From assembly GCA_028658405.1 (NCBI GenBank), contig JAKOGY010000018.1, forward strand, positions 1 to 38,409: DNA of 38,409 nt. The letters are read 5' to 3'. Below, in pieces: positions 7,582 to 38,253 of this stretch. Within the stretch, counting starts at the first letter, position 1. Each line of letters begins with the position of its first letter. The notes beneath the pieces are model-generated. The model was not told the DNA's origin. It saw only the letters and a list, made by a program, of their open reading frames with translations, and searched no databases. This stretch comes from Dolichospermum sp. ST_sed8. Lineage in GTDB: Bacteria; Cyanobacteriota; Cyanobacteriia; Cyanobacteriales; Nostocaceae. A program made the translations under genes and the position numbers.

Positions 7582-7702
7582 TTTATTTTCGTTAATGTTT
7601 ACAATCAGAGATTTGTTGATTAAGTGATATAAAATAATTAATTGTATTTTACCACAGGAATAAATTAATGTGGAGTGTAAAGAATCTTAATAATTGTACT
7701 AA

Positions 7703-7875
7703 GAGAACTCCATAAAAAAGATGAACTGCTTGCAGCAGCGCTAGTTCCCTCCGGGACGCTCTCGCGTTCGCTATCCAATCTTGTGGGATGGGCATCTTGC
7801 CCGTCCTAATATTATTAGCAGGCAAGATGCCTGCGCCACAAGAAATTTTGGGGTATTTTTTTATTTGGAAGTCTC
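7703..7875. mobile_element. MITE copy A (TWA target site)
   Basis: A 173-bp element starting GAGAACTCCATAAAAAAG and ending ATTTGGAAGTCTC, which gives imperfect terminal inverted repeats (GAGAACTCC / GAGACTTCC). It is flanked by TAA on both sides (7700-7702, 7876-7878). The interior has GGGCATCTTGCCCG and CAGGCAAGATGCCTG hairpins. There is no coding capacity. It occupies the gap between the DUF262 gene and acnB. Two further copies lie at 23735 and 24970. Confidence 0.85.
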
Positions 7876-7923
7876 TAACTTCCTAAAATTCAGGTGAGCC
7901 ATCAAGACCCACCCTACACTACA

Positions 7924-22783: not shown

Positions 22784-22892
22784 CTACAATACTTACTATT
22801 TTTCACCGAATCATTTAGAATGGCTATATCAGCGAAAATTTACATTTAATTGTCAGTCAATAAATTTATAATGAGTTTTTAAACTTTGCCTT

Positions 22893-23429
22893 ATGGTTGC
22901 CCAACTAGAAACCCCAGGTCTAAATTCGACTCTCAGCTTACCATATTCTGTAAAAGGACTAGTCCAAGTCTTTACTAGTCCTGAACGGAGCTTTTTTACG
23001 AGCGTGATGGCACAAGCGCTGAGAATTGCTGGACAAGGTACACCAGTATTAATAGTCCAGTTCCTCAAAGGTGGTATTCGTCAAGGACATGAACGACCTA
23101 CCCAAATGGGACAACATTTAGATTGGATTCGCTGTGATTTGCCCCGTTGTATTGATAGTTCAGATTTGGACGAAGCGGAAAATCAAGCCTTACAACAACT
23201 GTGGCAACATACCCAAAAGGTAGTTAGTGAAGGCAAATATTCTTTACTGGTATTAGATGAGTTGAGTTTGGCGATTAATTTGGGTTTAATTCCGGAAACT
23301 GAGGTTTTAGAGTTTCTTTCTCAATGTCCTTCTCATCTGGATATTATTCTCACAGGTTCTCAGATGCCAAAGTCTCTGTTAGATGTGGCAGATCAAATTA
23401 CAGAAATTCGTCGTAGTCATCAACCTTGA
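22893..23429 (+). CDS. CobO/CobA-like ATP:corrinoid adenosyltransferase homologue lacking the P-loop
   Basis: A 178-aa protein with the CobA/CobO layout: a beta strand (GLVQVFTS), a helix, VLIVQFLKGG (usual substrate-binding strand), LVLDELSLAINLGLIPETEV (Walker B and the following helix), and DIILTGSQMPKSLLDVADQI (usual LTGR-type end). In genuine enzymes residues 28-36 are a P-loop of the GDGKGKTT type; here the segment reads SPERSFFTS, with no Gly-Lys-Thr. ATP binding in the normal way is therefore doubtful. It could be a structural or regulatory relative; this variant may be general in cyanobacteria. Confidence 0.8.
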   Translation: MVAQLETPGLNSTLSLPYSVKGLVQVFTSPERSFFTSVMAQALRIAGQGTPVLIVQFLKGGIRQGHERPTQMGQHLDWIRCDLPRCIDSSDLDEAENQALQQLWQHTQKVVSEGKYSLLVLDELSLAINLGLIPETEVLEFLSQCPSHLDIILTGSQMPKSLLDVADQITEIRRSHQP

Positions 23430-23734
23430 GACAGAGAGCCTTGTTTACGAGAGAGGTTAAAAAAGTAGGACTTACGCACTGTACAAATCAATCATGATAT
23501 GCATTCACCAAAATACCTTATTTCAGGCTGCAACTAATTCTATATGTTACCGATAAATTAACCGTGGGGTAGGGGTAAAAGTAAAAGCTCACAAGTGTCA
23601 ATTTAAGTCAAGAATGGCTTATCTGTTAGCTTTCACACCCGCCCAGAAATGAATTATGGCTTACGCCACGCTTTGCTATCAGGGCTAATACCCAAAGTAA
23701 ACTTTTACTAAACAAGTTAAAAATTTTCCGGTTA

Positions 23735-23895
23735 GAGAACTCCACAAAAAAAATGATCTGCTTGCAGCAGCGCTAGTTCCCTCCGGGACGCTCCGCGAAC
23801 GCTATCCAATGGTATCTTGCCAGTTCTTGTATTATTAGGGGACCAGATGCCCGCACTACAAGAAATTTTGGGATATTTTTTAAATTGGAAGTCTC
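23735..23895. mobile_element. MITE copy B (TWA target site)
   Basis: A 161-bp element starting GAGAACTCCACAAAAAAA and ending AATTGGAAGTCTC, flanked by TTA on both sides (23732-23734, 23896-23898). Same orientation as copy A; the interior shares CTTGCAGCAGCGCTAGTTCC. Upstream of dcd. Confidence 0.85.
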
Positions 23896-23901
23896 TTATT
23901 C

Positions 23902-23951
23902 AGTCATCTTCAGATGACTTGAGCTATTAGACTGGGAATTCATTCCCAGTC
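23902..23951. repeat. Two adjacent palindromes
   Basis: AGTCATCT-TC-AGATGACT at 23902-23919 and GACTGGGAAT-TC-ATTCCCAGTC at 23930-23951, directly after the MITE. They could form a double hairpin in RNA; they are probably another dispersed repeat. Confidence 0.7.
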
Positions 23952-24293
23952 GGGTAATAGGTTTTACGTTAAGTTGACAGCAATGAAGCTCTTGCTAAAC
24001 CCCTAGGATAAGTGTGGTTTTTACAGCAATACATATTTGAGGTTGCTATTAGTATTGGACTTATTACATTTCATATTTATATAAACTATTAGCATTTATA
24101 TTATAAAGTAAATCTAATGACATCGCTTAGATTTTCTGAAGTACAAAAAATTATGCTGATATATAACACAATACACAATCGAATAAAAATTTCGGATCAT
24201 TTTTTATAACTTGGTATCCTTAATCATGCTAGGATGACAAGCTTGGGAATTTAAGTAATATCAAATAAAGTCTAGTAAAAAGGTAACTATCAA

Positions 24294-24890
24294 ATGTTGA
24301 AGAATGACAAGTGGATAATTGAACAAGCAAAGAAAGGAATGATTGAACCATTTGAACCTAGTTTACTTCGCACTATCAGGTTAGAATCTGGCGCAGAAGT
24401 ACCTGCATTAAGTTATGGTTTATCTTCCTATGGTTATGATATACGTTTATCACCTAAAGAATTTTTAGTATTTAAACATATTCCTGGAACAGTTGTTAAT
24501 CCTAAAAAATTTAATCCCAAAAATCTAGAATCTGTGGATTTACAACATGATGAAGATGGAGATTTTTTTATTATTCCTGCACATTCTTATGGACTAGGAG
24601 TAGCATTAGAAAAATTACAAATGCCTCCTAATGTAACTGCAATTTGTTTAGGGAAAAGCACTTATGCCCGTGTTGGTTTGATAGCAAATATTACACCAGC
24701 AGAGGCTTCGTGGAATGGCGCACTTACCCTGGAATTTAGTAATTCATCAAGTGCTGATTGTAGAATTTATGCCAATGAAGGAGTTGTACAATTATTGTTT
24801 TTAGAAGGAGAACCATGTCAAACTACCTATGCAGATAGAGTAGGTAAATATCAAAATCAGCCTGAAAGAGTGACTTTAGCTAAAGTATAG
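24294..24890 (+). CDS. dcd: dCTP deaminase
   Basis: A 198-aa dCTP deaminase making dUTP, the dUMP source for thymidylate synthase. Motifs: LSYGLSSYGYDIRLSP, HSYGLGVALEKL, CLGKSTYARVGLIANITPAE (catalytic Glu in TPAE), LEFSNSS, and [13 protein letters not shown]. The C-terminus reads SWNGALTLEF ... QTTYADRVGKYQNQPERVTL, unlike the cyanobacterial form ([10 protein letters not shown] ... [14 protein letters not shown]) preserved in the remnant at 35076-35258. It is also more AT-rich and sits between two inverted MITEs, so I infer that it is an acquired gene that replaced the native one. Confidence 0.95.
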   Translation: MLKNDKWIIEQAKKGMIEPFEPSLLRTIRLESGAEVPALSYGLSSYGYDIRLSPKEFLVFKHIPGTVVNPKKFNPKNLESVDLQHDEDGDFFIIPAHSYGLGVALEKLQMPPNVTAICLGKSTYARVGLIANITPAEASWNGALTLEFSNSSSADCRIYANEGVVQLLFLEGEPCQTTYADRVGKYQNQPERVTLAKV

Positions 24891-24969
24891 TTATTGTTTA
24901 TTATTGACACATAAAATATCAATAATCAGTATTACATTCGGAACTTAGCCAACGTAGGCGATCGCTTTA

Positions 24970-25150
24970 GAGACTTCCAATTTAAAAAATATCCCAAAAC
25001 TTCTTGTAGTGCGGGCATCTTGCCCGCTAATAATACAACCCACCTTCCGCACCCTAAACTGTCACACAACGAAAAATGGTCGTTTGGGGATTTGAGATTG
25101 GCGATAGCGAAGCGCTGCTGCAAGCAGTTCATTTTTTTTGTGGAGTTCTC
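24970..25150. mobile_element. MITE copy C, inverted (TWA target site)
   Basis: A 181-bp inverted copy: starts GAGACTTCCAATTTAAAAAA and ends TTTTTTTGTGGAGTTCTC, flanked by TTA on both sides (24967-24969, 25151-25153). It carries about 60 bases of extra sequence near 25030-25090 not present in copies A and B. With copy B it brackets dcd. Confidence 0.85.
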
Positions 25151-25237
25151 TTAAGATTGATAGCTTTTTGCTGTTTGAGATATATCCCACATTCCGCACT
25201 TCAAAAGTAGTATACAAAAACTACATTTACTTCCCAA

Positions 25238-28132
25238 CTAATTCCTTAAATCTATATCAGTCTTAACATCATTATTTAGTCCTAATTCAGCCAGTGCAAC
25301 TTTAGTTTCCTCAATCTTTTGGGTAGCTATTTCTCCCTCTACTAAAACCTCCACTTTTAATGTTAATTTCAAATCCTTGATGGTTGCAAATTTAGATACA
25401 ACTTTTGTGTAAAAATTCATCCATTTTTGCGGTGTAATTACACCACTCCACTTTAATAATTTTGGTAATACAACTGGGGTTATAATCTCAGGTTCATCTT
25501 TTTTTGGTTCTGGTTCATCTTGTAATTTTTTCGTATTACTATCATAGGACGCAGGTTTCTCTCCTACAGTATTTAGAATCGGTGTAGAACCACTTTTATT
25601 ATTATTTGAGAGATCAGTAGTAGTTTCCCCATTTTCTGGTGGTGTTGATGGCTTTTCAGGAATAGAAACACTTGCAGCTAAAGCTGTTTGATAAGCTTCT
25701 GCTGTTTCTTTAGTAATGATAAACATATCCTCAGAAATTTCTACATCTCTCACAGAAAGATCACATTGAAAATAGAAAGGTTGATAGCCATTATTACTTT
25801 TACCAATATAAGCTAAAGTTCCATCTTTGACACCGCGAGATATAGCATCTTTGACAGCATCACTATTCAACAGTCTGGGAAATAATGGAGATGCAAAAAA
25901 GGCATCGCGGACAGCTTTGGTACTCCATTCTGTAAATGCAGGTGGCCAATTTCTACTTAAAAAGCGCGGGTTAATAGTATCAATAACGTCATCACTTTGG
26001 CGTAACCGGTTGATAATTAAATTCACCAATTTATCAGCTTGACTAGAGTTTACTTGTCCAAAATCAATTACACGAATTTTGTTATCTTTCCCCAATAAAG
26101 CCACAAATTTATAGGCATTCCACACGCTTTCTTTTAAATTAGATTCACATTTTTTCAGATTTTCTCCTAACTGACGTTTTTGGTTTTCATCTAATCTTTC
26201 TTTTTCTTCATCGTTAATATCTTCCCATGCTAAAACTTTTCTAGCTTCTTCTCGTAGTTTGGTATCAGTATCAGCAATTGCCCAAATTATTCCACTCTTA
26301 AATGTTCGGTTGGATGTACCACATTCTTTAGTCATGGACTCAATCATTTTTAGAGTCTGACTATCTTGCATAGAATGTTCTGGTGATAATATTGCTAAAT
26401 TCAAAACAGGCTGATTAGTAATTTTACTGGATACTTCTGGAAATTCAATTGATTGAATTCCTGGATGAGAAGTGAAAACTTTTTGAATTTCGGCTTTGAC
26501 TCTTTCTGTAATCCTTTCTGATTGGATATTGGCGCGACGGTCTGCTAAAATTTTATTTAAGTTGGGTGACAGACTAAAACGATATTTATTTTTTTCTATT
26601 GATAAATAATAGCAATTAGTCGCCAAGGTCTCTAAAACTGTTTCTACATTACCAATATCTAAAGATGGTTCTGCTACTGCTAAACGAATTTCTGGGATAG
26701 TAGATTCTGCACGCAAAATACCACCATTAGATTCAAAGAATATTGTGGTTGTGACTTTGCGGTGCAGTCGTGCTTTTTTAATTTGGTCATCCGCTTCCGC
26801 ATCCAAGCGGACTGCATGGGAATCTTTTTTACCACAAATATCAGTTGTGACAGCACCTTCTAATCTATTTTCTCCCAATTGTTCAAAGACAGCAGCGCGA
26901 AATTGTGGGTCATCTAGGGGTGCAGTTCCTAAAGTAACTAAAGGGTCACGGTGTGCGCCTTGATATCCTTGTTGATAGGCGTTAGATACCCATAATGCTA
27001 GGAGTCGCAGCACTCCCCTAGTACGTTGGAAACGAGGTAAAACTTGCCATTTGCGCTCAAATACTGATAATACTGAGGGATGGAAAGGATAGGTAGCATA
27101 AAAGGCTTCACGGGGATTATCCAGGGGAAACCAACTAGGTAGTTGTTGACGATGATCTAGTACCCAGTCAGCGTATTCATTGCAAGTGGCGATCGCATCT
27201 TTTGGTAACATAATCCTACCATCCGCACTCACAGCCCCAGCATCCCATTCAAATAGTCTTCTTCTAATAATTTCTGAAGTTTCTGCTTCTGCTGACATCA
27301 TGATAGGTTTACCCACCCTATCCAGCATTTTCTTAAACCGTTGTTCATCCCCTTCATCGGCTGAGGTGTATTCTAATTCTGAAGCGGGAACGGAAACTAC
27401 TAACACCACATTATCTAAACCTCTAGCAGTTTCTGATAATGCTTGAATGAAATTGTATAAACTGTTGTGATAACCCTTGCCACGATAGGAACTAACATAA
27501 TTAATAATTTCATCCATTAATATCAAACAGGGTTTATCTTTGGGCAGAAATTGTTTAATTACATCGCCTTTAGGTTCAATAAATTCTGCTTCATGTTGTG
27601 CCAATACAGCTAGTGCAGTTTCACCACCTAATTGATAGGCAATTTCTCCCCAAGGTGTTTTCCGTAATGATGTACCATCATTTCCTCCCCGTCCTGTAAG
27701 AGAATCAAATTCAGTGCCGACAAACACGGCTACTGCTGCTTCTGGAACTGAAGAAATACCAGCTTTTTGTAAAATCTTTTGTACACCAGTCCAATTATTA
27801 GCAATAGCACCACCTTTAGCTAAATGGTAAAGTAAAGTGAGAGCGTGGGTTTTACCGCCACCAAACTGAGTAGCCAGGTTAAATACAGCAGAAGTTTCTG
27901 TTTTTTCTCCAGACAGACGACGGATAACTTGGGCGGAAAATTCAGTTAAATATTTAGTTAAATAGGTACGTTCAAAAAACCTTTCTGGTTGTTGATAGTC
28001 AGCAGGTGCTTTTTGATTTCTTACCTGATCTAAATGTACTGCAAATTCGGAAGCATCTAAGGGTTTACCTTCCCGTAAGTCTTCGCGGGGTGTTAGTCCA
28101 TCAATTTTGTACCAAGGTTTGATATTTGCCAT
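25238..28132 (-). CDS. DUF499 ATPase of an anti-phage cassette
   Basis: A 964-aa protein of the DUF499 family. N-terminus IKPWYKIDGLTPREDLREGK; Walker A TQFGGGKTHAL (residues 88-98); Walker B CLILMDEIINYV (202-213); then the long conserved region through VLPRFQRTRGVLRLLALWVS. The C-terminal quarter has a Pro/Ser/Thr-rich linker and an unrelated-looking end domain (KLLKWSGVITPQKWMNFYTK). DUF499 proteins, related to BrxC/PglY ATPases, recur with DUF1156 methyltransferases and SNF2 helicases in anti-phage clusters. The neighbours here fit that set. The gene appears intact. Confidence 0.92.
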   Translation of the reverse strand: MANIKPWYKIDGLTPREDLREGKPLDASEFAVHLDQVRNQKAPADYQQPERFFERTYLTKYLTEFSAQVIRRLSGEKTETSAVFNLATQFGGGKTHALTLLYHLAKGGAIANNWTGVQKILQKAGISSVPEAAVAVFVGTEFDSLTGRGGNDGTSLRKTPWGEIAYQLGGETALAVLAQHEAEFIEPKGDVIKQFLPKDKPCLILMDEIINYVSSYRGKGYHNSLYNFIQALSETARGLDNVVLVVSVPASELEYTSADEGDEQRFKKMLDRVGKPIMMSAEAETSEIIRRRLFEWDAGAVSADGRIMLPKDAIATCNEYADWVLDHRQQLPSWFPLDNPREAFYATYPFHPSVLSVFERKWQVLPRFQRTRGVLRLLALWVSNAYQQGYQGAHRDPLVTLGTAPLDDPQFRAAVFEQLGENRLEGAVTTDICGKKDSHAVRLDAEADDQIKKARLHRKVTTTIFFESNGGILRAESTIPEIRLAVAEPSLDIGNVETVLETLATNCYYLSIEKNKYRFSLSPNLNKILADRRANIQSERITERVKAEIQKVFTSHPGIQSIEFPEVSSKITNQPVLNLAILSPEHSMQDSQTLKMIESMTKECGTSNRTFKSGIIWAIADTDTKLREEARKVLAWEDINDEEKERLDENQKRQLGENLKKCESNLKESVWNAYKFVALLGKDNKIRVIDFGQVNSSQADKLVNLIINRLRQSDDVIDTINPRFLSRNWPPAFTEWSTKAVRDAFFASPLFPRLLNSDAVKDAISRGVKDGTLAYIGKSNNGYQPFYFQCDLSVRDVEISEDMFIITKETAEAYQTALAASVSIPEKPSTPPENGETTTDLSNNNKSGSTPILNTVGEKPASYDSNTKKLQDEPEPKKDEPEIITPVVLPKLLKWSGVITPQKWMNFYTKVVSKFATIKDLKLTLKVEVLVEGEIATQKIEETKVALAELGLNNDVKTDIDLRN

Positions 28133-28203
28133 AAATTTAAGTGTGTGAGATAAATGTGTGAGTGTGCAAGGTAGGTTTTAATAGTTCAATTAATCATTAA
28201 ATA

Positions 28204-28249
28204 GTGGAACAGGCTTCTAGCCTGTTGACAGGCAAGATGCCTGTTCCAC
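28204..28249. repeat. Nested palindrome
   Basis: Outer arms GTGGAACAGG and CCTGTTCCAC enclose AGGCTTCTAGCCT and CAGGCAAGATGCCTG, giving a cruciform-like structure upstream of the DUF499 gene. The inner palindrome also occurs inside MITE copy A. Confidence 0.8.
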
Positions 28250-28356
28250 ATTTGAGAAGATGTAGGTTGAGTTGAGGACTTTTGACAATAGTTTTATTTT
28301 GATAGGGGATAATTTTATTTTTCTGTTTTCATAATTAAAATAATGTTCATAATTAC

Positions 28357-28767
28357 TTAACGTAACAAAGCAATAAACCCAGCTTGTTCAAAATGTTTAT
28401 CATAAGCAAGTGCTTCTAATATATTTTTTTGGGACATAATATGAAATGATGTACAATCTGTAAGACTCCATGCTTGATCTGGTCGTTGATTATATAAATC
28501 TAGTCCACTTTTAAATAGTTCATCTGTTTGTATCACTACTTCAATCTCAGGATTATCAAAGCAGTAATTAATAAATTGAACTGCCTTTTGTCTATAATAA
28601 ATACCTTTTCCTGAAAAGGCATTTAGTAATTCAGTAAATACCATTTCGCTGGTAACAAGAGGAATAAATTTTATAGAGGTTGTTATTTGTTTAGCTTTTT
28701 GATGTAAATCATCATCAGGATTTAGTAAAGCAATCCAATAACCTGTATCAGCAAATATTTTTCTCAT
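28357..28767 (-). CDS. PIN-domain (VapC-like) toxin
   Basis: A 136-aa PIN protein: IFADTGYWIALLNPDDDLHQ (first Asp), VTSEMVFTELLNAF (Glu), WSLTDCTSFHIM (third acidic residue), EALAYDKHFEQAGF (fourth). All four metal-binding acidic residues are visible, so it is probably an active ribonuclease toxin. It overlaps its antitoxin gene by 4 bases. The pair interrupts the defence cassette between DUF499 and DUF1156. Confidence 0.88.
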   Translation of the reverse strand: MRKIFADTGYWIALLNPDDDLHQKAKQITTSIKFIPLVTSEMVFTELLNAFSGKGIYYRQKAVQFINYCFDNPEIEVVIQTDELFKSGLDLYNQRPDQAWSLTDCTSFHIMSQKNILEALAYDKHFEQAGFIALLR

Positions 28768-29036
28768 AATTCTTCTTTAGGTGAACCATATAAATAGTGA
28801 TCTAGATTTTTTGATAAATCTCTTGGTAGCTGTAAATTATCTGCTGTTGGTGTTTCAGAATTAATTTGATCTACGAAATTTAACAAAGATGGATAATCAG
28901 AATTATGAGAATCATGTTTTTCCAGTAATTCTTGATTTGACCTGGATTTAATAAATAACAGAAAGTCTAAAACTTCTCTTATTAAGAGATCCGGTGTTTG
29001 GGATATTTCATTGATTAATTGTTCTCTTGCAGACAT
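28764..29036 (-). CDS. VapB-like antitoxin (DUF2281 type)
   Basis: A 90-aa protein beginning SAREQLINEISQTPDLLIRE followed by VLDFLLFIKSR, the helical N-terminus of DUF2281-type antitoxins, with an acidic toxin-binding tail. AAAGGAG lies before the ATG. ATGA overlap with the PIN gene. Confidence 0.8.
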   Translation of the reverse strand: MSAREQLINEISQTPDLLIREVLDFLLFIKSRSNQELLEKHDSHNSDYPSLLNFVDQINSETPTADNLQLPRDLSKNLDHYLYGSPKEEL

Positions 29037-29074
29037 TTATTTTCTCCTTTAGATTGTATTTGTATATGCCCAGC

Positions 29075-29140
29075 AGATCCCCGACTTATAACATTAATTT
29101 ATCATATTTATCTACAGGCTGAAAAAGAAGTCGGGGAGCT
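29075..29140. repeat. Interrupted inverted repeat AGATCCCCGACTT / AAGTCGGGGAGCT
   Basis: 13-bp arms with one mismatch and a 40-base spacer, between the antitoxin leader and the DUF1156 fragment. Resembles the cyanobacterial AAGTCGGGGA family of intergenic repeats. Confidence 0.7.
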
Positions 29141-29171
29141 TAATAGCAATATTCTGTAATTTTCCTCCTAT

Positions 29172-29800
29172 TTAAAATCCTAATCCTTTTTTCCTTGCTA
29201 ATACCCCATCTACCCAGCGTTTTTCATCTGTACCGGTGGGGTATAATGCCGATAATGCCTGAGCAAGTCCCCAAAAGCGTTGGTCGTTTCCTGCTCCTTC
29301 ATCTACTAAAAAGCGTTTTAGGGCTTCGCTGCGTCCGGCTGCAAATAAAATCATGCTTTGGTGAATGCGGTCTAATGTAGTATTCCCTAATTGCGGGACT
29401 GTTTTTTCACCCCAGTCTGTATCTTCTTCTGTCTCGGTGATACCTAGCACTGCGAATAAGTTGAGTTGTTCAGGTTCTTTGTTTTTGCCTTTTTTACCTT
29501 TGGTTTTGCTGGGGGTTTGGGCTTCTTCTTTACCAAATAAATATTGTGTACGTTCTGATACTGGTAAAAGTTTGGCGGTGCTGCCTTTGACTTCTACTAA
29601 GCGGGTAAGCTGTTCTAAATGTGCGCCTAGTCCTTGGGCTATTTTCCGGGCTGCATCAAATTCTAGGACGTAACCGCCGGTTTTGCTGGTTTTGCTGCTG
29701 GTTTCTTCGTCGTCTTCGTCGTCGGTTTCTGATTCGCTGCTGTTGTTGTCGGTGCTACCTGTGGAAAGTGCCGATGAGTGCGGAGTGCGAGAGTAATTTT
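29172..29800 (-). pseudogene. C-terminal fragment of the DUF1156 methyltransferase
   Basis: About 210 codons without a proper start. From upstream: an acidic Ser-rich linker (ESETDDEDDEETSS), then GGYVLEFDAARKIAQGLGAH, LEQLTRLVEVKGSTAKLLPV, LFGKEEAQ, a Lys-rich stretch, then TLDRIHQSMILFAAGRSEAL, KRFLVDEGAGNDQRFWGLAQ and ALSALYPTGTDEKRWVDGVL. This matches the end of anti-phage DUF1156 proteins, which are about 900-1000 aa. The frame stays open back into the dispersed repeat at 29809-29848, where homology ends. The whole catalytic middle is missing between here and the N-terminal piece. Confidence 0.75.
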
Positions 29801-29808
29801 CTGTTTTA

Positions 29809-29848
29809 ATCCTGTAAATCCTTTAATCCTGGATATCCTGATTCAGAC
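29809..29848. repeat. ATCCTG-type 40-bp dispersed repeat (copy 4)
   Basis: ATCCTGTAAATCCTTTAATC ... GATATCCTGATTCAGAC. Lies exactly at the break between the two DUF1156 pieces. Confidence 0.9.
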
Positions 29849-29856
29849 ATTTTACC

Positions 29857-30024
29857 CTTGGTGGTGCAGAAAAATCCTGAAACACCTATAAATAAAGGAT
29901 TATACCCGAAACAATGAATTTTGGATTTCTCAAGACATCGAACGAGGTCATTGGGTTTCAGCTTCTATTTTGACCCTTCAGGCTTTTTATTGTGAAACTC
30001 AAAAAAGTTTTCTGCACCACTAAG
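29857..30024. mobile_element. 168-bp MITE-like element with 9-bp target duplication
   Basis: Terminal inverted repeats of 17 bp: CTTGGTGGTGCAGAAAA at the left and, inverted, CTTAGTGGTGCAGAAAA at the right, with one mismatch. CATTTTACC occurs directly on both sides (29848-29856 and 30025-30033), a 9-bp target duplication. Too short for a transposase; probably a passenger of an insertion sequence elsewhere. It supplies the last 20 codons and the stop of the DUF1156 N-terminal piece. Confidence 0.85.
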
Positions 30025-30300
30025 CATTTTACCTAACGAGTAACTTACATTAACAAATAAATTTATCTCATTAATGGCTAAATCACGAAAAGATTGGGGG
30101 CAATTTTCATCAACAGGGTCAGGCCATAAAGCCGCACATATTACAGCCCGACAAGCGGCTAAAGGTCGTCTAGCCCACCAAATATGTAAAGTAGAAATAT
30201 GCCCATGTCTGATTGATTTCTCCCGTCGTGCGTGGGCAGAAATGCGTTTAATGGGTAGGTCAACTTCGATTAGGCGTTTAGGGTATTTGGTGGTATTCAT
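29965..30300 (-). pseudogene. N-terminal fragment of the DUF1156 methyltransferase
   Basis: A 111-codon frame. Residues 1-75 are the DUF1156 start: [60 protein letters not shown]. These proteins are adenine-type DNA methyltransferases that protect host DNA in DUF499-helicase anti-phage clusters. From about residue 92 the frame is encoded by the inserted 168-bp element, which brings the stop. The SAM-binding and catalytic motifs are absent, so no methylation is possible from this gene. Confidence 0.85.
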
Positions 30301-30301
30301 T

Positions 30302-30341
30302 GTCAGAATCAGGATTTATAGGATTAGAGGATTTACAGGAT
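30302..30341. repeat. ATCCTG-type 40-bp dispersed repeat (copy 5, inverted)
   Basis: GTCAGAATCAGGATTTATAG ... GATTTACAGGAT, inverted relative to copies 1-4, ending two bases before the DUF1156 start codon on the minus strand. Confidence 0.9.
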
Positions 30342-30382
30342 TTTTATTTATCAATTGTCTGTGAGTTGATAACATTTTATTT

Positions 30383-30422
30383 GTCTGAATCAGGATGTCC
30401 AGGATTAGAGGATTTACAGGAT
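30383..30422. repeat. ATCCTG-type 40-bp dispersed repeat (copy 6, inverted)
   Basis: GTCTGAATCAGGATGTCCAG ... GATTTACAGGAT. Same orientation as copy 5. It overlaps the last codons of the ParE-like gene, whose final EIL is encoded by the repeat. Confidence 0.9.
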
Positions 30423-30737
30423 TTCATCGGTTTCATCTATAGATGATTGGTGACTATGACGAACATGAATAATCGCAACAATATATTCTTCAACTACAAA
30501 TAAAACTCGATATTTTCTTTGTTTTCCAATCCAAAGTTGTCTGACTTCACGACCAATAGCTTTTGCTTCTGGTGCTATAGTACAGCGATTAGGAAATTTT
30601 TTTAGTGATTCTATAGCATCTTCAAATTGATAGTACCATTTATTGGCTAATTCAGGAGTTGTATTATCGCACATCCAACGATAGGCTGTTTCGATTTCTA
30701 AAAAAGCAGTAGGTTGTATAATAACTTCGTAATTCAT
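30414..30737 (-). CDS. RelE/ParE-family toxin
   Basis: A 107-aa protein: YEVIIQPTAFLEIETAYRWM, FEDAIESLKKFPNRCTIAPE, REVRQLWIGKQRKYRVLFVV, IIHVRHSHQ. This is the ParE/RelE fold with the usual basic strand RKYRVLF and C-terminal VRH. It overlaps the antitoxin gene by 4 bases. The tail has been reshaped by the dispersed repeat (DETDEIL), which may extend the natural end by a few residues. Confidence 0.88.
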   Translation of the reverse strand: MNYEVIIQPTAFLEIETAYRWMCDNTTPELANKWYYQFEDAIESLKKFPNRCTIAPEAKAIGREVRQLWIGKQRKYRVLFVVEEYIVAIIHVRHSHQSSIDETDEIL

Positions 30738-31000
30738 GGACGTGGAGGAATATTAAACTGGTTTTTTAATGTTGCTAAGGCTTTCTCTGCTGGTATTCCT
30801 TGTCCTTGATTAAATTCATCTAATCCTTTACGAATACCTACTATTGCTTCCAAATAATCAATTCTTTCTAATAGTTCTTGATATGTACCTAGAGATGATT
30901 TTGGTGTAGTTTTCAGCGAGTGTAAAAAACTTAAAAGATCCTCTAGTAATTCCTTGGGACTATTATTAATTTCTTGTAACAGTAATTCTTTGATAGTCAT
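30734..31000 (-). CDS. Antitoxin partner of the ParE-like toxin
   Basis: An 88-aa protein. The N-terminus (TIKELLLQEINNSPKELLED) resembles DUF2281-type antitoxins; the second half (GIRKGLDEFNQGQGIPAEKA) is the toxin-binding helix typical of antitoxins paired with ParE. First gene of the pair, ATGA overlap. Confidence 0.78.
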   Translation of the reverse strand: MTIKELLLQEINNSPKELLEDLLSFLHSLKTTPKSSLGTYQELLERIDYLEAIVGIRKGLDEFNQGQGIPAEKALATLKNQFNIPPRP

Positions 31001-31065
31001 GGTGGTTAATTGTTAAAGTTTATGCTTTGATTATAGCAAGTTTTTAGATTATGTAAAAGTAAGAA

Positions 31066-31218
31066 TCATATCAGATTTTCTCCATACCCACCCCGACGTT
31101 CTACCTTTTCTTTATCTGCTTCTTCTGCTGTTAATAGCGGTATTCCAGAAGCAATAATTTCTTGGCGAATTTCCCGTAACTTTTGACCTAATTTAAAACC
31201 ACATTGTTTGGGTATCAT
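31066..31218 (-). CDS. 50-aa helical protein
   Basis: Reads MIPKQCGFKLGQKLREIRQE, then IIASGIPLLTAEEADKEKVE and RRGGYGENLI. Short charged proteins of this pattern (KLREIR...LLTxEEIxxE...RRGG) are common in cyanobacteria, often beside toxin genes; the role is unknown. The start codon lies at the edge of a 40-bp dispersed repeat. It sits just after the helicase on the same strand. Confidence 0.6.
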   Translation of the reverse strand: MIPKQCGFKLGQKLREIRQEIIASGIPLLTAEEADKEKVERRGGYGENLI

Positions 31219-31256
31219 CTTGTAAATCCTATAATCTTGGACATCCTGATTCTGAC
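31217..31256. repeat. ATCCTG-type 40-bp dispersed repeat (copy 7)
   Basis: ATCTTGTAAATCCTATAATC ... GACATCCTGATTCTGAC, forward orientation, filling the gap between the helicase stop and the 50-aa ORF. Confidence 0.88.
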
Positions 31257-31262
31257 ATTATC

Positions 31263-34200
31263 CTATATTATACCTCCTAAAATCTCCTCTGCTCCAAGGT
31301 GATAATGCTCAATTTTTACAAATGGTTGCCAAGCTAATTTTACAGGGTCTTGAATAGTGTGAACTTCTGGAGATAAAGCACAATTAAATACTACATATAA
31401 CCAGTAATCTCTCTTCAATCTTTCTGCTGTTTTATATTCATTTGTTGTTAACGCTACTTCACCAACATTTGCCCTTCCTTTAACTTCAATAAATCTGACA
31501 GCACTAGCTTTCAACGGATCTCCAGAATCAATTTGACGCGATATCAAATCAAATCCGCGATTCTCTTTTTCTACACTGACAACTTGCCATCCTCTAGCCT
31601 CCTCATAATCTATAACTGTCTGAATTGCTATTTTTTCAATTTCATCATTAGATACCATTGGCGCAATTTCTGGAGAACTTCTTTCAGGATGTGGTAATAC
31701 CCAAGCACGGCCATAATGATGAATGTCGGTAATTGCACAACTGGCTTCTTGCTGCAATTCTTCCCGTCGTTGTTCTAACCTCCCATTTAATTCAAATAAT
31801 CGGTCTTCTAATTGTTTAATGCGACCATCTAAACCCTGTTCTTTAGAACCAGATTCTTTCAGTTGCAACAACTCTATAAACTGAATCTGTACCTTATCAA
31901 TAATCACATTCAGACTAATTTCTATATGGTTAGAAATTGTCTCTACTTCCTTTTGTCGCTGTGTCCGAATTTCTGTTAAAAAGCTATTTAATTCCTGTTC
32001 AATTAAGGCTTGTTCTACCTGTTCTCGACTGGGTAAATTAGTATCATCTGGTAAATAATTAACTAAATTCCCATTGTCCCCAGCTTCCTCCTGCCTATCG
32101 GCAGACAGAGTAGATGTATGATTCTGAACAGTGGACTCTATACTCTTAGCAGGGAGTAAATCTAAAAATAAAGTTGGTTGGCGGACAGTCATTGTTCCAT
32201 CTAACTCTGTCTGCACCACATATAAACGTTCATGGAGTTTTCTACCCCGTCCATCAGTAATAGCAGATGAAAATATATCTAATCTAGCTGGTGATTTCCT
32301 ATGCAAATCGAAGAATATCGCACCCCGACACAAATCTTCCTGTACCTGTGCAGAAACTTCATCTCGTACACATTCAAATAAGGGATGTCCTGGCGTTACC
32401 CATTCCAACGTCGGATCATCCGTCAAGATATTTTTATCAAACGTAATCTTTTTATACTCTCGTCCCAACTTGCCAAAGCGATTTTCTAACCTATCTCCCG
32501 TTCCCCATAGAGTCCGAGGAACACGCCCAATTCTATATATTTTCTTACCTTTAGCCGTTTCCTTGGGATGAATCCCCGCTATATGTGCTGCTTGCACAAA
32601 AAAGTCATGGATAACTTCAGGTACTAATCTCCGTTCCTTAGCTTCAGCAGATTTACCAATAATTTGTGATAAATTTAATTCCCGTTTAGCAAGTCCTTCT
32701 AAAGCCGAATCGCTAATTTTACGGAAACGTTCTGTATCTACTTGTTCCACAATCCGATTGAGAATTACAGACTCAGTAAGGTTATGAGCATACATATCCC
32801 GCATCATCCGTTCTAACTGATTAGCAGGGAAAATATCACCCAGTACATTAAATACTTTACCCGTTCTCTCTGGATCTAAATCCATCTCAATAGCGCGAAT
32901 CCGTTCAAACAGTTTCCATAACACCTTACCTTCGCTGGTGTTAATAGCTACAAAGTTAAAAATTAAACAATCCTTATCCTGTCCATAACGGTGAATCCGT
33001 CCCATGCGCTGTTCTAACCGGACTGGATTCCAAGGAATGTCATAATTAATCATGAACCAGCAGAATTGTAAATTAATACCTTCTCCTGCGGCTTCTGTAG
33101 CTACTAAAACTTGACAATCTTCTCTAAATTCCCGTTCTGAATAAATCCGAGTATTGGGGGTATCTCTATTACCTATTTTCATTCCTCCATGAATTTGGGT
33201 AACAGTTAATCCCCATTCTTTTAATTTCCCAACCAAATAATCTAAGGTATCTTTATGCTCACTAAATATGAGCATTTTCATCTTCGGATCTGCAAATATT
33301 CCCTCTTGAATAATTACTTCTTTCAGCTTGACTAATTTAGATTCAATTTCTCTCTTTTCTAATATCAGTGCTTGACTAATTAATTCATTTAATTGCAAGA
33401 TTTCTCTTTTCAAAGCAACAGGGTCAACAGAAGCAACTACACCTTCTAAATCACCTATAATCTTTTGTTGTTCTATTTCAGTTAATTCATCAAAATCTTC
33501 TGGTAGCTTCTTATTAATTTGCTCTTGACGATAGCTTTCTGGATCTTCTAAAATCCTCTGACGTTTATCGCGCATCCGTTCTAAACTCCGACGGACAGCG
33601 TAAATACTAGAAGCAAAGCGACGTTGTAACATCGCCATTGTAAAACCTAAAGCTCTACCTCTGGCTGTATCATCACTGGAGGCTTTAATTGATTGGTCTT
33701 CCACATAATCAGTGAGTGCATTATAAAATTCCAATTCTTCCGCATCAATTTGAAATTCAATAGTTTCAACTTTGCGATTAGTGAATAATTTTTTCACAAT
33801 TCCCGTTTCTTCAGGGAATGTAACTAGAGCTTCTTTAGTCCGACGCAGATAAAAAGGAGCATTATTCCGTTTCATTGCTTCCTCTAAACTGCTGACATCA
33901 CCATAAACATCTCTATCTAATAATTCTAAAAATAAACAAAAGTTTTTCGGATCGCCTTTATGGGGCGTAGCTGTCATTAATAAATAGTGGTCGGTAATTT
34001 TAGAAAGTTCTTCACCGAGTTTATAAGCCAAAGTTTTATTATCAGAACTATAAGCACTCATTTTATGTGCTTCATCTACAATAATTAAATCCCAATTACT
34101 TCTTAATAAACTATCTTTTGCGTCTTCAATGCGAGAAACCCAAGATACAGAAGTGATAACTTGATTTTTTTCTTGCCAGGGATTAGAACCATAATTAGCC

Positions 34201-34754
34201 CGAAGCACATCTCCACGTACCACTTCAAATTCTTCTCGAAATTTGTCTTTGAGTTCTCGTTGCCATTGAAATGTTAGGTTAGCAGGGGTAATAATCAGGA
34301 TGCGTTTAACTAATCCTCTAATTTTTAGTTCTTTAATTAATAATCCTGCCATGATGGTTTTCCCAGCACCAGGATCATCAGCAAGTAAAAACCGAATACG
34401 TGGCTGTTTTAAAAAATACTCATAAACTGCTTCTAATTGATGGGGTAATGGGTCTACTCTTGCGATCGCCAATGCGAAGTAAGGATCATATTCATAAGCT
34501 AACCCCAACCGCAAAGCTTCTACACCGAACCGAAAATACTGGGCGTTACCGTCAAAGGGTTCTTTTTCAGGTGAGGATTCTAACTTTTCCAACTGTTGAG
34601 CATTGAGAATTGGTTGATAAGTATGATTGGTATTAATTCCAGTCCCAATGAGTTTTATCGAATCACCCATTGGTACAACTACCAATACCTGTACAGGTTC
34701 GGGAAAGATTGAACCACGAACAATTACATTTGCTTTCAGTTGGTCTAGTTTCAC
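31263..34754 (-). CDS. SNF2-type helicase with C-terminal DUF3883-like domain
   Basis: A 1163-aa superfamily 2 helicase of the type found in anti-phage clusters (DrmD-like). Walker A DDPGAGKTI (126-134), LIIVDEAHKMSA (DEAH 227-230), TATPHKGDP (motif III), a helicase C domain with EGINLQFCW and QRMGRIHRYGQ (motif VI), a coiled coil (EDRLFELNGRLEQRREELQQ), and a C-terminal domain (RGWQVVSVEKENRGFDLISR ... VRFIEVKGRANVGEVALTTN), which matches the nuclease-fold DUF3883. Start GTG at 34754 overlaps the stop of an upstream gene tail, as in a coupled operon. Intact. Confidence 0.92.
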   Translation of the reverse strand: MKLDQLKANVIVRGSIFPEPVQVLVVVPMGDSIKLIGTGINTNHTYQPILNAQQLEKLESSPEKEPFDGNAQYFRFGVEALRLGLAYEYDPYFALAIARVDPLPHQLEAVYEYFLKQPRIRFLLADDPGAGKTIMAGLLIKELKIRGLVKRILIITPANLTFQWQRELKDKFREEFEVVRGDVLRANYGSNPWQEKNQVITSVSWVSRIEDAKDSLLRSNWDLIIVDEAHKMSAYSSDNKTLAYKLGEELSKITDHYLLMTATPHKGDPKNFCLFLELLDRDVYGDVSSLEEAMKRNNAPFYLRRTKEALVTFPEETGIVKKLFTNRKVETIEFQIDAEELEFYNALTDYVEDQSIKASSDDTARGRALGFTMAMLQRRFASSIYAVRRSLERMRDKRQRILEDPESYRQEQINKKLPEDFDELTEIEQQKIIGDLEGVVASVDPVALKREILQLNELISQALILEKREIESKLVKLKEVIIQEGIFADPKMKMLIFSEHKDTLDYLVGKLKEWGLTVTQIHGGMKIGNRDTPNTRIYSEREFREDCQVLVATEAAGEGINLQFCWFMINYDIPWNPVRLEQRMGRIHRYGQDKDCLIFNFVAINTSEGKVLWKLFERIRAIEMDLDPERTGKVFNVLGDIFPANQLERMMRDMYAHNLTESVILNRIVEQVDTERFRKISDSALEGLAKRELNLSQIIGKSAEAKERRLVPEVIHDFFVQAAHIAGIHPKETAKGKKIYRIGRVPRTLWGTGDRLENRFGKLGREYKKITFDKNILTDDPTLEWVTPGHPLFECVRDEVSAQVQEDLCRGAIFFDLHRKSPARLDIFSSAITDGRGRKLHERLYVVQTELDGTMTVRQPTLFLDLLPAKSIESTVQNHTSTLSADRQEEAGDNGNLVNYLPDDTNLPSREQVEQALIEQELNSFLTEIRTQRQKEVETISNHIEISLNVIIDKVQIQFIELLQLKESGSKEQGLDGRIKQLEDRLFELNGRLEQRREELQQEASCAITDIHHYGRAWVLPHPERSSPEIAPMVSNDEIEKIAIQTVIDYEEARGWQVVSVEKENRGFDLISRQIDSGDPLKASAVRFIEVKGRANVGEVALTTNEYKTAERLKRDYWLYVVFNCALSPEVHTIQDPVKLAWQPFVKIEHYHLGAEEILGGII

Positions 34755-34861
34755 ACTGTCACCATCACTTTAGAATGATCTCTCTCTAACCACACCGGAA
34801 TCACAGCTTTACCTTCATCTAGCCAAGCGCGACCTAGGAATCGCTCTTTTACTGTCGAATC
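34751..34861 (-). pseudogene. Tail of a lost gene upstream of the helicase
   Basis: Thirty-six codons without a start: DSTVKERFLGRAWLDEGKAV, IPVWLERDHSKVMVTV, and a TGA that overlaps the helicase GTG. The overlap shows that it was the preceding gene of the operon. The small DUF3780 protein of these clusters is a candidate from position and feel, but I cannot confirm it. Beyond 34861 an in-frame stop appears and similarity is lost. Confidence 0.6.
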
Positions 34862-34900
34862 TTAATATTAATGTAATATAGAATGTGAATAATAACGTAA

Positions 34901-34945
34901 TTTACTTTACGTAAATATATACTTTCTATATTTACGTAAAGTAAA
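34901..34945. promoter_or_regulatory. Perfect 19-bp inverted repeat (TTTACGTAAA-rich)
   Basis: TTTACTTTACGTAAATATA (34901-34919) and its exact complement TATATTTACGTAAAGTAAA (34927-34945) surround a 7-base spacer. Each arm contains the small palindrome TTTACGTAAA. It lies about 150 bases upstream of the helicase start. It may be an operator for a dimeric or tetrameric repressor, or a terminator hairpin. Confidence 0.7.
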
Positions 34946-35075
34946 AATTCTGTTTTTATGTAGTCGGATTTTTTCTGTTGTTTAGAAGGAGTTTCTCTTA
35001 GCTTTGTTTACATACAAATAAGGCAAAAATCTTGTCCAGCAACAATTGTGACGATTTGACTATAAATAAAAAGCG

Positions 35076-35258
35076 GCTTGGCGTGGTCATCTTACCTTAG
35101 AATTCTCTAATTCTTCCAGTGCTGACTGTCGCATTTATGCTAATGAAGGTGTGGTACAGTTGCTATTTTTAGAAGGTGAGCCTTGTGCCGTTAGTTACGA
35201 TACTCGTCAGGGTAAATATCAAAATCAGCTAGAGATTGTTACACTGGCTCGGATATAG
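35076..35258 (+). pseudogene. Last 60 codons of a second, cyanobacterial-type dcd
   Basis: Reads [60 protein letters not shown] and TAG. It is collinear with the end of the intact Dcd but only about 70 percent identical in DNA; its residues fit the form usual in cyanobacteria. Homology begins abruptly at 35076. It is in the same orientation as the intact dcd, with the defence island between. Confidence 0.9.
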
Positions 35259-35373
35259 TCCAATATTTAGAAAAAATAGTTTTATTCTAAATATAGTATC
35301 TTAGAAATTATGTTTTGAAAAACTAAATAGCATAGCTATCATTTAACTTTTGCAAGCGTCCAATTAAATAATC

Positions 35374-35721
35374 ATGCCAGAAGAAGAATCAATCTTAGAC
35401 CCATTTCTAATACAGCTATTAGAAGGTTATACTTTAACAGAGGTGGCTGAGATTGAAAGATATATGACTGAATGGGATGCTGCTACTTATAGCAGTGTTG
35501 CTCAGAGTATATTAGACCATGCTGATAGAAAACAAATTGACCCTTTAAAGTATCTACGTAAAGCTCATAACTTTAATAAAAGAGGAGCAGTCAGAGTTCC
35601 AAAAACTGGATATCGTGGAGATAGTTCAGCAGTATATCGTAAAGGTAATGAATATCTGATTGTCAGACCAGACAAATATGGTAGCGAAAAGATAGTTACT
35701 TATGGAGTTAATGATGACTGA
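35374..35721 (+). CDS. Unknown protein, first gene of a three-gene operon
   Basis: A 115-aa protein I do not recognise. The N-terminal half is acidic and helical (DPFLIQLLEGYTLTEVAEIE); the second half is basic and strand-rich (FNKRGAVRVPKTGYRGDSSA, VYRKGNEYLIVRPDKYGSEK). No signal or membrane helix. Overlaps the next gene by 8 bases at ATGACTGA. Position before a nuclease gene suggests a small DNA-associated or regulatory partner. Confidence 0.7.
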   Translation: MPEEESILDPFLIQLLEGYTLTEVAEIERYMTEWDAATYSSVAQSILDHADRKQIDPLKYLRKAHNFNKRGAVRVPKTGYRGDSSAVYRKGNEYLIVRPDKYGSEKIVTYGVNDD

Positions 35722-36106
35722 AGCAGTTTTAAATCAGCAAGAAGTGACAAAGAAAAATATTAGTCAATTATTGTCACAATTGACTAATACTTATCAAAAT
35801 ACCCGCAGCGAAAGAAAAGAAATTGCTACTCATTTTTTCCCAGAAAATGAAGAGTTTTCACTGTTAGAAGAAATTGAACTTTTAACTGTAAATCTAAGAG
35901 GGTATGCCAGTCAAGTTACAGCTACAGGTCAAATACTTAATAAAGAACAGGTAATTTTTAAATTGCAGGGAATGCGAGTTTTTAGTATGTCTCCAATTGG
36001 GAAATTTTACTTTAGTAATAATGGAAAGTATGAACAAATAAAGAATTATATTAGGATGTTGGATTACTTGCGGTTACTATTGTTAGAATATTTGCAGAGT
36101 ATTTAA
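35714..36106 (+). CDS. Unknown protein, second gene of the three-gene operon
   Basis: A 130-aa soluble protein without a recognised family. Helical N-terminus (LNQQEVTKKNISQLLSQLTN), central FFPENEEFSLLEEIELLTVN, and a Leu-rich end helix (YIRMLDYLRLLLLEYLQ). I chose the ATG at 35714, 6 bases after GGAG at 35704-35707; ATGs at 35702 and 35711 are alternatives. Fourteen bases separate it from the nuclease gene. Confidence 0.7.
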   Translation: MTEAVLNQQEVTKKNISQLLSQLTNTYQNTRSERKEIATHFFPENEEFSLLEEIELLTVNLRGYASQVTATGQILNKEQVIFKLQGMRVFSMSPIGKFYFSNNGKYEQIKNYIRMLDYLRLLLLEYLQSI

Positions 36107-36120
36107 TCAAATATGATATT

Positions 36121-36735
36121 ATGAGTCGCTCCCGAATCATTCAACCTGGTCAAAGTTATACCTTTAGTAAATACTTTGAATTATCATTTTCTCCAGAGGA
36201 TATCCTGGCAGAACTTGGTTGTGTTTATCAACGTGAAAGGCTGAAATTACCAACTATAGAATCAACACCTAACTATGTTGAAGAATTGCAGCGAGTAATT
36301 GAGCGTAACCTGCGACGGGTTAAATTACTAAGTGAAGATGCGCGTAAACAAGCAATTATAGCGCCAATTCTTTTAGAAGTTTGTGAAATTACAGAAACTC
36401 AATTGAATATTGAATATCCTATTAGTGTTAGCGACCAACTAAAAGGTAGTTTAGATTATTATATTAATAAAGGTGAAAGTTTATTAGTCATTGAAGCTAA
36501 ACAAGCTGATTTGAGTAGAGGATTTACTCAATTAGCGGTTGAATTAATTGCTCTTGACCAATGGATAAATTCAGAAAAACCAATGCTTTATGGAGCAGTA
36601 ACTACTGGTGAAGATTGGCGATTTGCTATATACAAACGTCAAGAAAAAGAAATAATCGAAGATATAAAATTATATCGAGTTCCTGAAGAATTAACTGAAT
36701 TAGTGAGAATTTTAGTTGCCATAGTTAGTAATTAA
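36121..36735 (+). CDS. PD-(D/E)XK-like nuclease, third gene of the operon
   Basis: A 204-aa protein resembling the N-terminal nuclease domain of type I HsdR-like proteins: a helical start (ELQRVIERNLRRVKLLSEDA, RKQAIIAPILLEVCE), then LKGSLDYYINKGESLLVIEA followed by KQADLSRGFTQLAVELIAL. The Asp of SLDYY with E-x-K of IEAK and the Q-x3-E helix form a plausible catalytic site. No helicase or methylase is fused. Convergent with the thymidylate synthase gene with no gap between stop codons. Confidence 0.75.
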   Translation: MSRSRIIQPGQSYTFSKYFELSFSPEDILAELGCVYQRERLKLPTIESTPNYVEELQRVIERNLRRVKLLSEDARKQAIIAPILLEVCEITETQLNIEYPISVSDQLKGSLDYYINKGESLLVIEAKQADLSRGFTQLAVELIALDQWINSEKPMLYGAVTTGEDWRFAIYKRQEKEIIEDIKLYRVPEELTELVRILVAIVSN

Positions 36736-38253
36736 TCAAGGTTGAGTTTTCAGCGGTTTATCTTGTTCATAAATACACTGTTCTTTCATTACCAAAGCAA
36801 CTTCCGCTTTTTGTAACTCTACACCTAAATACATTGCATGGGAAACTTGCAAACCAGGACAATCTGTAAAGATTTGCTGAGAAAGTTTATGTGCTGATTT
36901 ACCAGAATAACAATTAACTACTTCTCCAGAACCAGGCGTTGTATGTTCGACAATAATACTATTATTCTGTACAGTAATAATAAAACTACCAGCAGGATCA
37001 AAATAATCTTTTCTCTGGGCAATTTTAGTATATTGGGATTTAATCACATTTTCTACATTTTCAAAACAATCATCATAAATATGGGCGCTTTGACTAATAG
37101 TAATTAATGCTCCCATTTTCAATGTATGATCAGTTTTTTTAACTAAAGAATTATAAATATATTTTTGTAAAGCCCTTAATCCCATTGCATTTGCTGGCCA
37201 AGCTGAAAACATATCATTACTGCGAAAAGTTGCCGTTAAAGATAATTCATGATCAACTATTCTCACCCAAATATGATTCAGACAAGGCGGGTTATCATTA
37301 TCATCTTGACTAGCATCCCATAAAGACATCACAGCCCTAGCGGAATCTATATCATTTGCTAATTTATTTATAACTTGTTCAATTTGATCACGTCCAAACC
37401 AAGAACGCAAACGTTGCCCATAAGTATATTTTACTCCTTCTCTATTAGGTGCATCATCTAAAATTTGCGAAATATATTCCTCTAAAAAGCCTCTATCTAT
37501 GGGTAAATAATTGGGTTCAGGAAAATAAAAATCATCAGGTTCATCAGTAACAACTGCCATTAAATCTATCAATTCTTGCCATTTACCATCATAACCAGTT
37601 GGTCTAATTGTTCCCGTTGTTTTAATCCTGTGAATGATTTTCACCCAAGTTTCAGCGATGGTTTTACCTTCTATTCTATGTCCATAGCGTGTTCCTGGAA
37701 AAACGGTCGGTTCAACTGTAGTCATGGGAAACTCTTCAGGTATTCCCCAAGGTACAACTATTTCTTTTTGGGCGTAATATTTAATTTTTTCGACAGCATC
37801 ATAAATTGATATCGCGTCTTGAATTTCTAGAGAATTTCGTAATTTTTCTAAGGCATTGATATCAACATCAATATCAATATAACCAGGAACATCAGAACGA
37901 ATTACCCAAGATTTTCGCCCAGCATCACTAATATTTTCTTCTACACCATGACGGAAAAAATCACCTAAACATTGACAAGCACCGGCATTTTTATCTTCTT
38001 TGGTGGCGTTGAGAATGACTAAGTAGTGAACATGAGGATTGAGTAATAAATTGCGAATTAGTAAATTTATACCCCTGGTTGGTGAGTATAACTGTCCAAT
38101 TACAGCATATTCATTTGATTGTAGATGTTTAGCGATCGCTTGCTTCACCATCCACCCTGTAATCACTGCGGTTTGCCCACTGCCATAAATTAACTGGTTG
38201 GGCTTGTGCTGTGCTGTATAATAGAATTGGGTGGGTTGACCCATTTTTGTCAT
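36736..38253 (-). CDS. thyA: Thymidylate synthase (long cyanobacterial form)
   Basis: A 505-aa protein. Residues about 1-175 form an extra N-terminal domain (YAVIGQLYSPTRGINLLIRN, ILNATKEDKNAGACQCLGDF) of the DUF4346 type. Residues 185-480 are thymidylate synthase: GTRYGHRI, the catalytic Cys324 in NPPCLNHIW, then TATFRSNDMFSAWPANAMGL (nucleotide binding). It converts dUMP to dTMP with methylene-tetrahydrofolate. The first ATG (38253) is used; a second ATG is three codons later. The dcd remnant lies only 1.5 kb away, so dcd and this gene were probably neighbours. Confidence 0.88.
   Translation of the reverse strand: MTKMGQPTQFYYTAQHKPNQLIYGSGQTAVITGWMVKQAIAKHLQSNEYAVIGQLYSPTRGINLLIRNLLLNPHVHYLVILNATKEDKNAGACQCLGDFFRHGVEENISDAGRKSWVIRSDVPGYIDIDVDINALEKLRNSLEIQDAISIYDAVEKIKYYAQKEIVVPWGIPEEFPMTTVEPTVFPGTRYGHRIEGKTIAETWVKIIHRIKTTGTIRPTGYDGKWQELIDLMAVVTDEPDDFYFPEPNYLPIDRGFLEEYISQILDDAPNREGVKYTYGQRLRSWFGRDQIEQVINKLANDIDSARAVMSLWDASQDDNDNPPCLNHIWVRIVDHELSLTATFRSNDMFSAWPANAMGLRALQKYIYNSLVKKTDHTLKMGALITISQSAHIYDDCFENVENVIKSQYTKIAQRKDYFDPAGSFIITVQNNSIIVEHTTPGSGEVVNCYSGKSAHKLSQQIFTDCPGLQVSHAMYLGVELQKAEVALVMKEQCIYEQDKPLKTQP

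Follow-up and report, generated by a model that had tools for sequence, protein, structure and literature searches.

On a contig of the cyanobacterium Dolichospermum sp. ST_sed8 (GCA_028658405.1, JAKOGY010000018.1), a complete dcd gene and the 3' end of another lie at one locus, with defence-type genes between them. The locus raises the question of whether a defence island carrying its own dcd broke into the resident gene, as a sequence-only reading had proposed, or whether the exchange of dcd and the arrival of the defence genes were separate events. We call the whole 38,409-nucleotide stretch that was analysed the window; its features are listed in Table 1.

Table 1. Features around the two dcd copies, in window coordinates (a dot marks features without strand)
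Feature	Position	Strand	Basis or detail
btuR-like P-loop gene (PRK07414), left flank	22893..23429	+	NF005648 305.8 bits; synteny
Filler, partly dispersed repeats; G013 homology ends at 23449	23450..24176	.	
Left inverted copy of dispersed repeat	23734..23896	.	arms 23734-23774, 23827-23896
Stretch common to the window and Cuspidothrix CHARLIE-1 (upstream region and dcd)	24177..24889	+	97.6% nt
Intact xenologous dcd, 198 aa	24294..24890	+	TIGR02274 profile match, homologues, tree
Right inverted copy of dispersed repeat	24969..25151	.	arms 24969-25038, 25111-25151
Hma module, widest homology to Hma modules elsewhere	25225..34790	-	
hmaC (DUF499)	25238..28132	-	PADLOC PDLC00662 419 bits, E 1.1e-125
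PIN-domain gene	28357..28767	-	domain match
Small ORF overlapping upstream end of PIN gene	28764..29036	-	no Pfam match
Broken hmaB (DUF1156)	29172..30300	-	C-terminal DNA 29172-29770 and N-terminal DNA 30077-30300 left
hmaA (SNF2-type helicase, NOV C-terminal domain)	31263..34754	-	PDLC00659 630.7 bits, E 1.2e-189
Sequence neither Hma nor dcd	34791..35000	.	
69 bp matching the sequence before the G054 dcd stump	35001..35069	.	
Native dcd stump, last 62 codons	35070..35258	+	reading frame, homology to G013 dcd
ORF115 and ORF134 (115 and 134 aa), located after native dcd in G013	35374..36106	+	synteny
thyA-like / DUF4346 gene, right flank of native site	36736..38253	-	Pfam Thymidylat_synt and DUF4346

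The native dcd site and its remnant

The sequence-only reading had suggested comparing the locus with relatives that lack the island. In one such genome of the same genus (G013), the site is undisturbed: dcd lies directly between the btuR-like gene and the two small ORFs (ORF115 and ORF134), and the thyA-like gene comes next. Native dcd follows the btuR-like gene in G013 and in most genomes of the genus that keep dcd. The flanks of the window match G013 in nucleotide homology blocks that are 96-98% identical. This homology stops at position 23449, 37 bp before the native dcd, and restarts at 35071, inside the gene; in place of 449 bp of G013 (the 37 bp upstream plus 412 bp from the start of native dcd), the window has 11,621 bp (23450-35070).

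The native dcd has been lost in the ST_sed8 genome and only its last 62 codons are left, two more than first described (codon numbers of this and the other stump and of the G259 intein, both treated below, follow the intact window protein of 198 aa). The stump is in the same orientation as the intact dcd, as had been stated, and its open frame spans 35070-35258, with the stop at the end; it lacks a start codon and has an in-frame TAA immediately 5' of it. Compared with the G013 dcd, 60/61 aa and 183/186 nt are identical. The distance of about 1.5 kb to thymidylate synthase that had been pointed out also holds, the end of the thyA-like gene lying 1.48 kb from the stump.

The intact copy scores 119.6 bits against NCBIfam TIGR02274 (cut-off 92.8), carries no intein and has an unbroken frame, with changes relative to other carriers that are mostly synonymous (8/1, 8/3, 12/2 and 12/2). 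Solved dCTP deaminases align with its protein (4dhk, E 1.6e-47), which supports, without proving, its predicted function as a dCTP deaminase. The stump matches the C-terminal part of this protein at 76% identity with an E-value of 1.3e-25, and the match is therefore not due to chance. These two are the sole matches to the intact Dcd in the genome (5.78 Mb, 532 contigs), and the one addition from a Pfam DCD search is a 93-aa frame on another contig (C46, 27.6 bits). The gene at 24294-24890 is the sole complete dcd found in a genome that is listed as 99.99% complete.

Two cyanobacterial lineages of dcd

Among the 16 genomes of the genus, including that of the window, dcd is uninterrupted in six others (67-71% identical to the intact copy of the window), split by an intein in five and without a match in four. 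The phylogeny that the sequence-only reading had proposed was built from 86 Dcd proteins out of 116 collected, after picocyanobacterial rows were thinned to 1 in 6 and rows shorter than 175 aa were dropped. In this tree, the intact copy groups with proteins of Cuspidothrix CHARLIE-1, two further family members (G032 and G080), Anabaena sp. FACHB-1237, Nostoc sp. RI_552 and one MAG, and 11 native rows of the genus lie across branches with 100/99 support. An approximately unbiased (AU) test rejects a clade of the window copy and the native rows (p 7e-160), placing the two copies in separate lineages and leaving no room for a duplication within the genome. The undisturbed site, the tree and the near-identical stump together support the idea that a complete dcd from a different lineage took the place of the native gene in situ. 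The description of the stump as cyanobacterial and of the intact copy as foreign has to be redrawn. Both types are cyanobacterial, and the distinction is between native to the genus and xenologous: the rows were gathered as relatives of the window copy and the cellular ones are cyanobacterial, so the incoming dcd is xenologous yet not from outside the phylum. A phage or plasmid was considered as immediate donor and none was found in the phage, plasmid and IMG/VR collections, the best phage match being at 75% aa, the best in IMG/VR at 76%, and those to plasmids at most 51% among the matches listed (all 21 under 60%).

The incoming dcd was detected at 98-100% aa identity in 5 of 145 genomes of the family, including that of the window. 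In the four others (98-99%) it occupies three different places, one of them likewise after btuR, in FACHB-1237 (98% aa). It is located near pth- and tatA-like genes in Cuspidothrix CHARLIE-1 and near a hisS-like gene in G032 and G080 (gene names assigned by eye). A Uma2-type gene follows it in all four genomes (by Pfam for the G032 copy, by sequence for the rest). As well as the stretch shared with Cuspidothrix (Table 1), the window has about 0.7 kb in common with FACHB-1237 (95.7% nt) and 0.6 kb with G032 and G080 (97.7% nt); with G054, a genome of another genus discussed below, homology continues to position 24928. Neighbouring genes common to the window and Cuspidothrix or FACHB-1237 are 75-85% identical. 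In Cuspidothrix, a Uma2-type gene and a small ORF are followed by 46 bp that repeat the 3' end of dcd (L019:12078-12123); this copy looks like what remains of an insertion at that end of the gene.

In FACHB-1237, the incoming-type gene comes after what is left of the strain's native dcd, roughly its first 36 codons. This is a second swap at the btuR locus that kept the opposite end of the native gene and is island-free in the fetched flanks. More distant relatives of the incoming dcd also lie directly after btuR in Nostoc sp. RI_552 (90%) and in the MAG (88%), and no Hma genes were found near dcd in the fetched flanks of these three. The sequence-only reading had tied the presence of the intact type at this place to the island. 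Island-free relatives with that type after btuR do exist, namely these three; within the genus of the window, none of the other genomes among the 16 has the incoming type there, nor did we find a swap-without-Hma intermediate among them.

The Hma cassette and the order of events

The genes between the two dcd copies were largely as first described, comprising genes for DUF499 and DUF1156 proteins and for an SNF2-type helicase, together with small ORFs of which one encodes a PIN domain; the toxin-antitoxin genes of that description are represented by the PIN-domain gene and its overlapping small ORF, which may form such a pair by inference. The three larger genes correspond to Hma, named as a candidate defence system in PMC8565338. 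The window is alike in HmaA and HmaC, whose models are matched over most of their length, and differs in hmaB: its ORF matches only positions 3-68 of the 967 in the PADLOC model, leaving the HmaB methylase incomplete. Since about 2.25 kb of the hmaB found in G011 is missing and the set is incomplete, the module is probably inactive.

Of 208 family genomes, 24 have an HmaA match at E <= 1e-150; identity is at least 74% in 17 of them and 37-39% in the remaining seven, whose matches may be other helicases. At eight Hma loci elsewhere, homology to the window is confined to 25225-34790 and dcd falls outside it; none of these eight fetched loci contains a dcd. Conversely, Hma is absent from the six xenologous-type dcd loci and from the G054 contig (0/7 fetched). 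Three genomes, namely those of Cuspidothrix, FACHB-1237 and RI_552 (the last with a dcd at 90%), have dcd and hmaA on separate contigs, the two genes being assigned to one genome via identical contig numbers and coordinates.

Pfam recognised no integrase, transposase or recombinase in 23450-35070, across all 13 ORFs that are 80 aa or longer. The block junctions carry no direct repeats, the only repeats being in homologous dcd coding DNA or short chance matches. A 19-bp direct repeat (24843-24861 and 35211-35229) was rejected as an attachment core, both copies lying inside homologous coding DNA and native sequence running on both sides of the right one. The inverted repeat copies that flank the incoming dcd were likewise rejected as transposon ends, given a third copy at 7687-7876 and relatives at other loci of the genus; they belong to a dispersed repeat that possibly served as a recombination substrate. 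A group II intron end at the stump found no Rfam match, either in window positions 22800-36800 (E up to 0.5) or in the G054 contig (L250). Taken with the Hma loci elsewhere, these results give no support to the claim that dcd arrived with the defence island.

The incoming dcd and Hma occur apart elsewhere and FACHB-1237 shows the swap without an island, so we consider a recent xenologous displacement of dcd in situ, with the Hma cassette inserted separately, the likely explanation. A short DNA segment comprising dcd and its upstream region would have recombined from incoming DNA into the native gene or next to it, and the dispersed repeats may have assisted. With the new gene supplying dCTP deaminase, the native copy would have been free to be broken, and the Hma cassette, which is found alone elsewhere, could then have lodged in the redundant gene and begun to decay. 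We infer that dcd entered first and Hma later, and the link between the swap and the island is probably coincidental. The 69-bp match between the window and G054 at the stump falls outside this account.

The rival in which an island with its own complete dcd and Hma integrated in the native gene and replaced its front part would explain why both lie in one block that takes the place of a single 449-bp stretch, and why a complete gene marks one end of the block and a 3' stump the other, the pattern expected of such integration; the G054 stump, which shares its contig with a DRT-type gene, can at least be reconciled with it. We hold this single event to be unlikely, as dcd and Hma are together in no other fetched locus and on separate contigs in three genomes, no recombinase or junction repeat was recognised, and FACHB-1237 has the swap without the island. 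A recent duplication within the genome, for which the shared orientation, the 76% identity over the stump and the tandem dcd pairs known in G142 and G158 might speak, has next to no probability in view of the AU test and of the 98-99% aa matches of the intact copy in other genera. That two places of the genome were wrongly joined is very improbable. The structure is known from one assembly, in 532 contigs and with dispersed repeats beside the incoming dcd, but the gene order on either side agrees with that of G013 at the orthologous position, and the intact copy is the sole complete dcd found in a nearly complete genome.

A possibly recurrent break point and comparison with known systems

The G054 genome holds a stump of the incoming-type dcd (59/60 aa identical to the intact copy of the window); it has no complete match to the window Dcd, and a 146-aa DCD-superfamily protein is encoded on another contig. 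In each of the two stumps, codon 136 is an in-frame TAA and homology starts at codons 137-139, the G054 gene being cut within about 6 bp of the point at which the native dcd of the window is cut. The 69 bp before the two stumps match with a BLAST E-value of only 0.004; their alignment score is 62, whereas 5000 shuffles never exceeded 31 and 209,100 other 69-mers never exceeded 38. The Dcd of G259 has an intein inserted after residue 138, ahead of residue 139 (PAEA^S). The shared cut point, the common flank and this intein suggest, from two stumps, a targeted site. The G054 contig with the stump also encodes a reverse transcriptase of the UG34 DRT type (PADLOC), which adjoins a predicted exonuclease (L250:714-3089).

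Searches for further copies of the supposed element end returned little. A 23-mer, with up to two mismatches in 217 family genomes, was found in G000, G054 and three others that appear unrelated by eye (the reversed control gave two), and a 30-mer, with up to three mismatches in 388 genomes of the order without G054, in G000 only. The exact element-end pattern was absent from IMG/VR, the element end matched in plasmids only through a dispersed repeat before the G054 end and, for the window, through a short stretch outside the 69 bp, and short element-end queries had no match in phages and plasmids. We offer only tentatively, as a doubtful proposal, that dcd codons 137-139 might be the target of an unrecognised mobile or homing element that cut two lineages (with different dcd types, the same 69-bp flank and different defence-type genes on the same side) and whose site coincides with the G259 intein site; cells would recover through an other-type dcd travelling by itself or through a dCMP-deaminase route. 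If true, selfish elements would be forcing the replacement of a core enzyme at the dcd locus time and again, thereby opening a landing site for defence genes.

Other lesions of dcd are spread through these cyanobacteria. Inteins occur at GK^S in five genomes of the genus and in G340, and at STYAR^C in G045, G051, G111, G243 and Aphanizomenon phage CL131. The five of the 16 genus genomes concerned (G002, L105:9046-10728; G001, G008, G014 and G015) have a 360-aa LAGLIDADG-type intein, and the G002 extein is identical over 198 columns to the intein-free Dcd of G005. In G294, G326 and G254, a group II intron interrupts dcd near codon 50 (L299, L300 and L301; Rfam RF00029, RF04357). The genome G006 has no canonical dcd; between its btuR and thyA genes lie a dCMP-deaminase-type gene above the Pfam cut-off and deoxyribosyltransferase-like and DCD-like genes, both below their own cut-offs. 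G011 encodes proteins similar to this set by eye, G010 has ORFs of the same order and sizes, and G003 has no DCD match at E <= 0.5. Because of the three intein sites, the group II intron, the absence of dcd with a dCMP-deaminase-type gene in its place and the xenologous replacement, the evidence points to dcd as a repeatedly disturbed gene in these cyanobacteria. The dCTP deaminase of phage CL131 carries a published intein according to PMC6293099; the likeness to the window is in dcd as a target of selfish elements, whereas the intact dcd of the window is intein-free.

The btuR-thyA interval also varies within the genus (L136, L137, L139, L099 and L103), with dCMP-deaminase-type, deoxyribosyltransferase-like, dUTPase-like (by eye) and DCD-like genes, the DCD-like proteins having a hydrophobic C-terminal part by eye. 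In G012 (L140 and L104), about 13 kb between btuR and dcd consists of polyketide-synthase, oxidoreductase and transporter-type genes; we considered this insert as a defence island and recognised none. The two members of the tandem dcd pairs in G142 and G158 (L254 and L262) fall in the native-like clade.

The dcd replacement is real, recent and well supported, ordinary in kind and unusually well preserved. In titles and the beginnings of abstracts we found no report of dcd displacement in cyanobacteria; most subscription journals lie outside that coverage, so missing reports are no proof of novelty. Trees are usually the sole basis for inferring that a core metabolic gene was replaced in situ. 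At this locus, the stump of the replaced gene, the undisturbed site and a second, island-free swap that kept the opposite end are all visible, and homing elements or phage pressure can now be tested as drivers of the turnover of DNA-precursor enzymes. The locus also cautions that a defence cassette next to a swapped gene need not be its carrier.

Site-specific islands insert into a housekeeping gene and supply a new end for it. The window resembles them in having a complete copy on one side, a 3' stump on the other and foreign cargo between, but differs in that no recombinase or junction repeat was recognised and gene and cargo are unlinked elsewhere. In xenologous gene displacement in situ, an orthologous gene is replaced by horizontal transfer. 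The window is like it in that a gene at a conserved place has been exchanged for a copy from another lineage; it differs in that the stump of the displaced gene was left, with a defence cassette between the old and the new copy.
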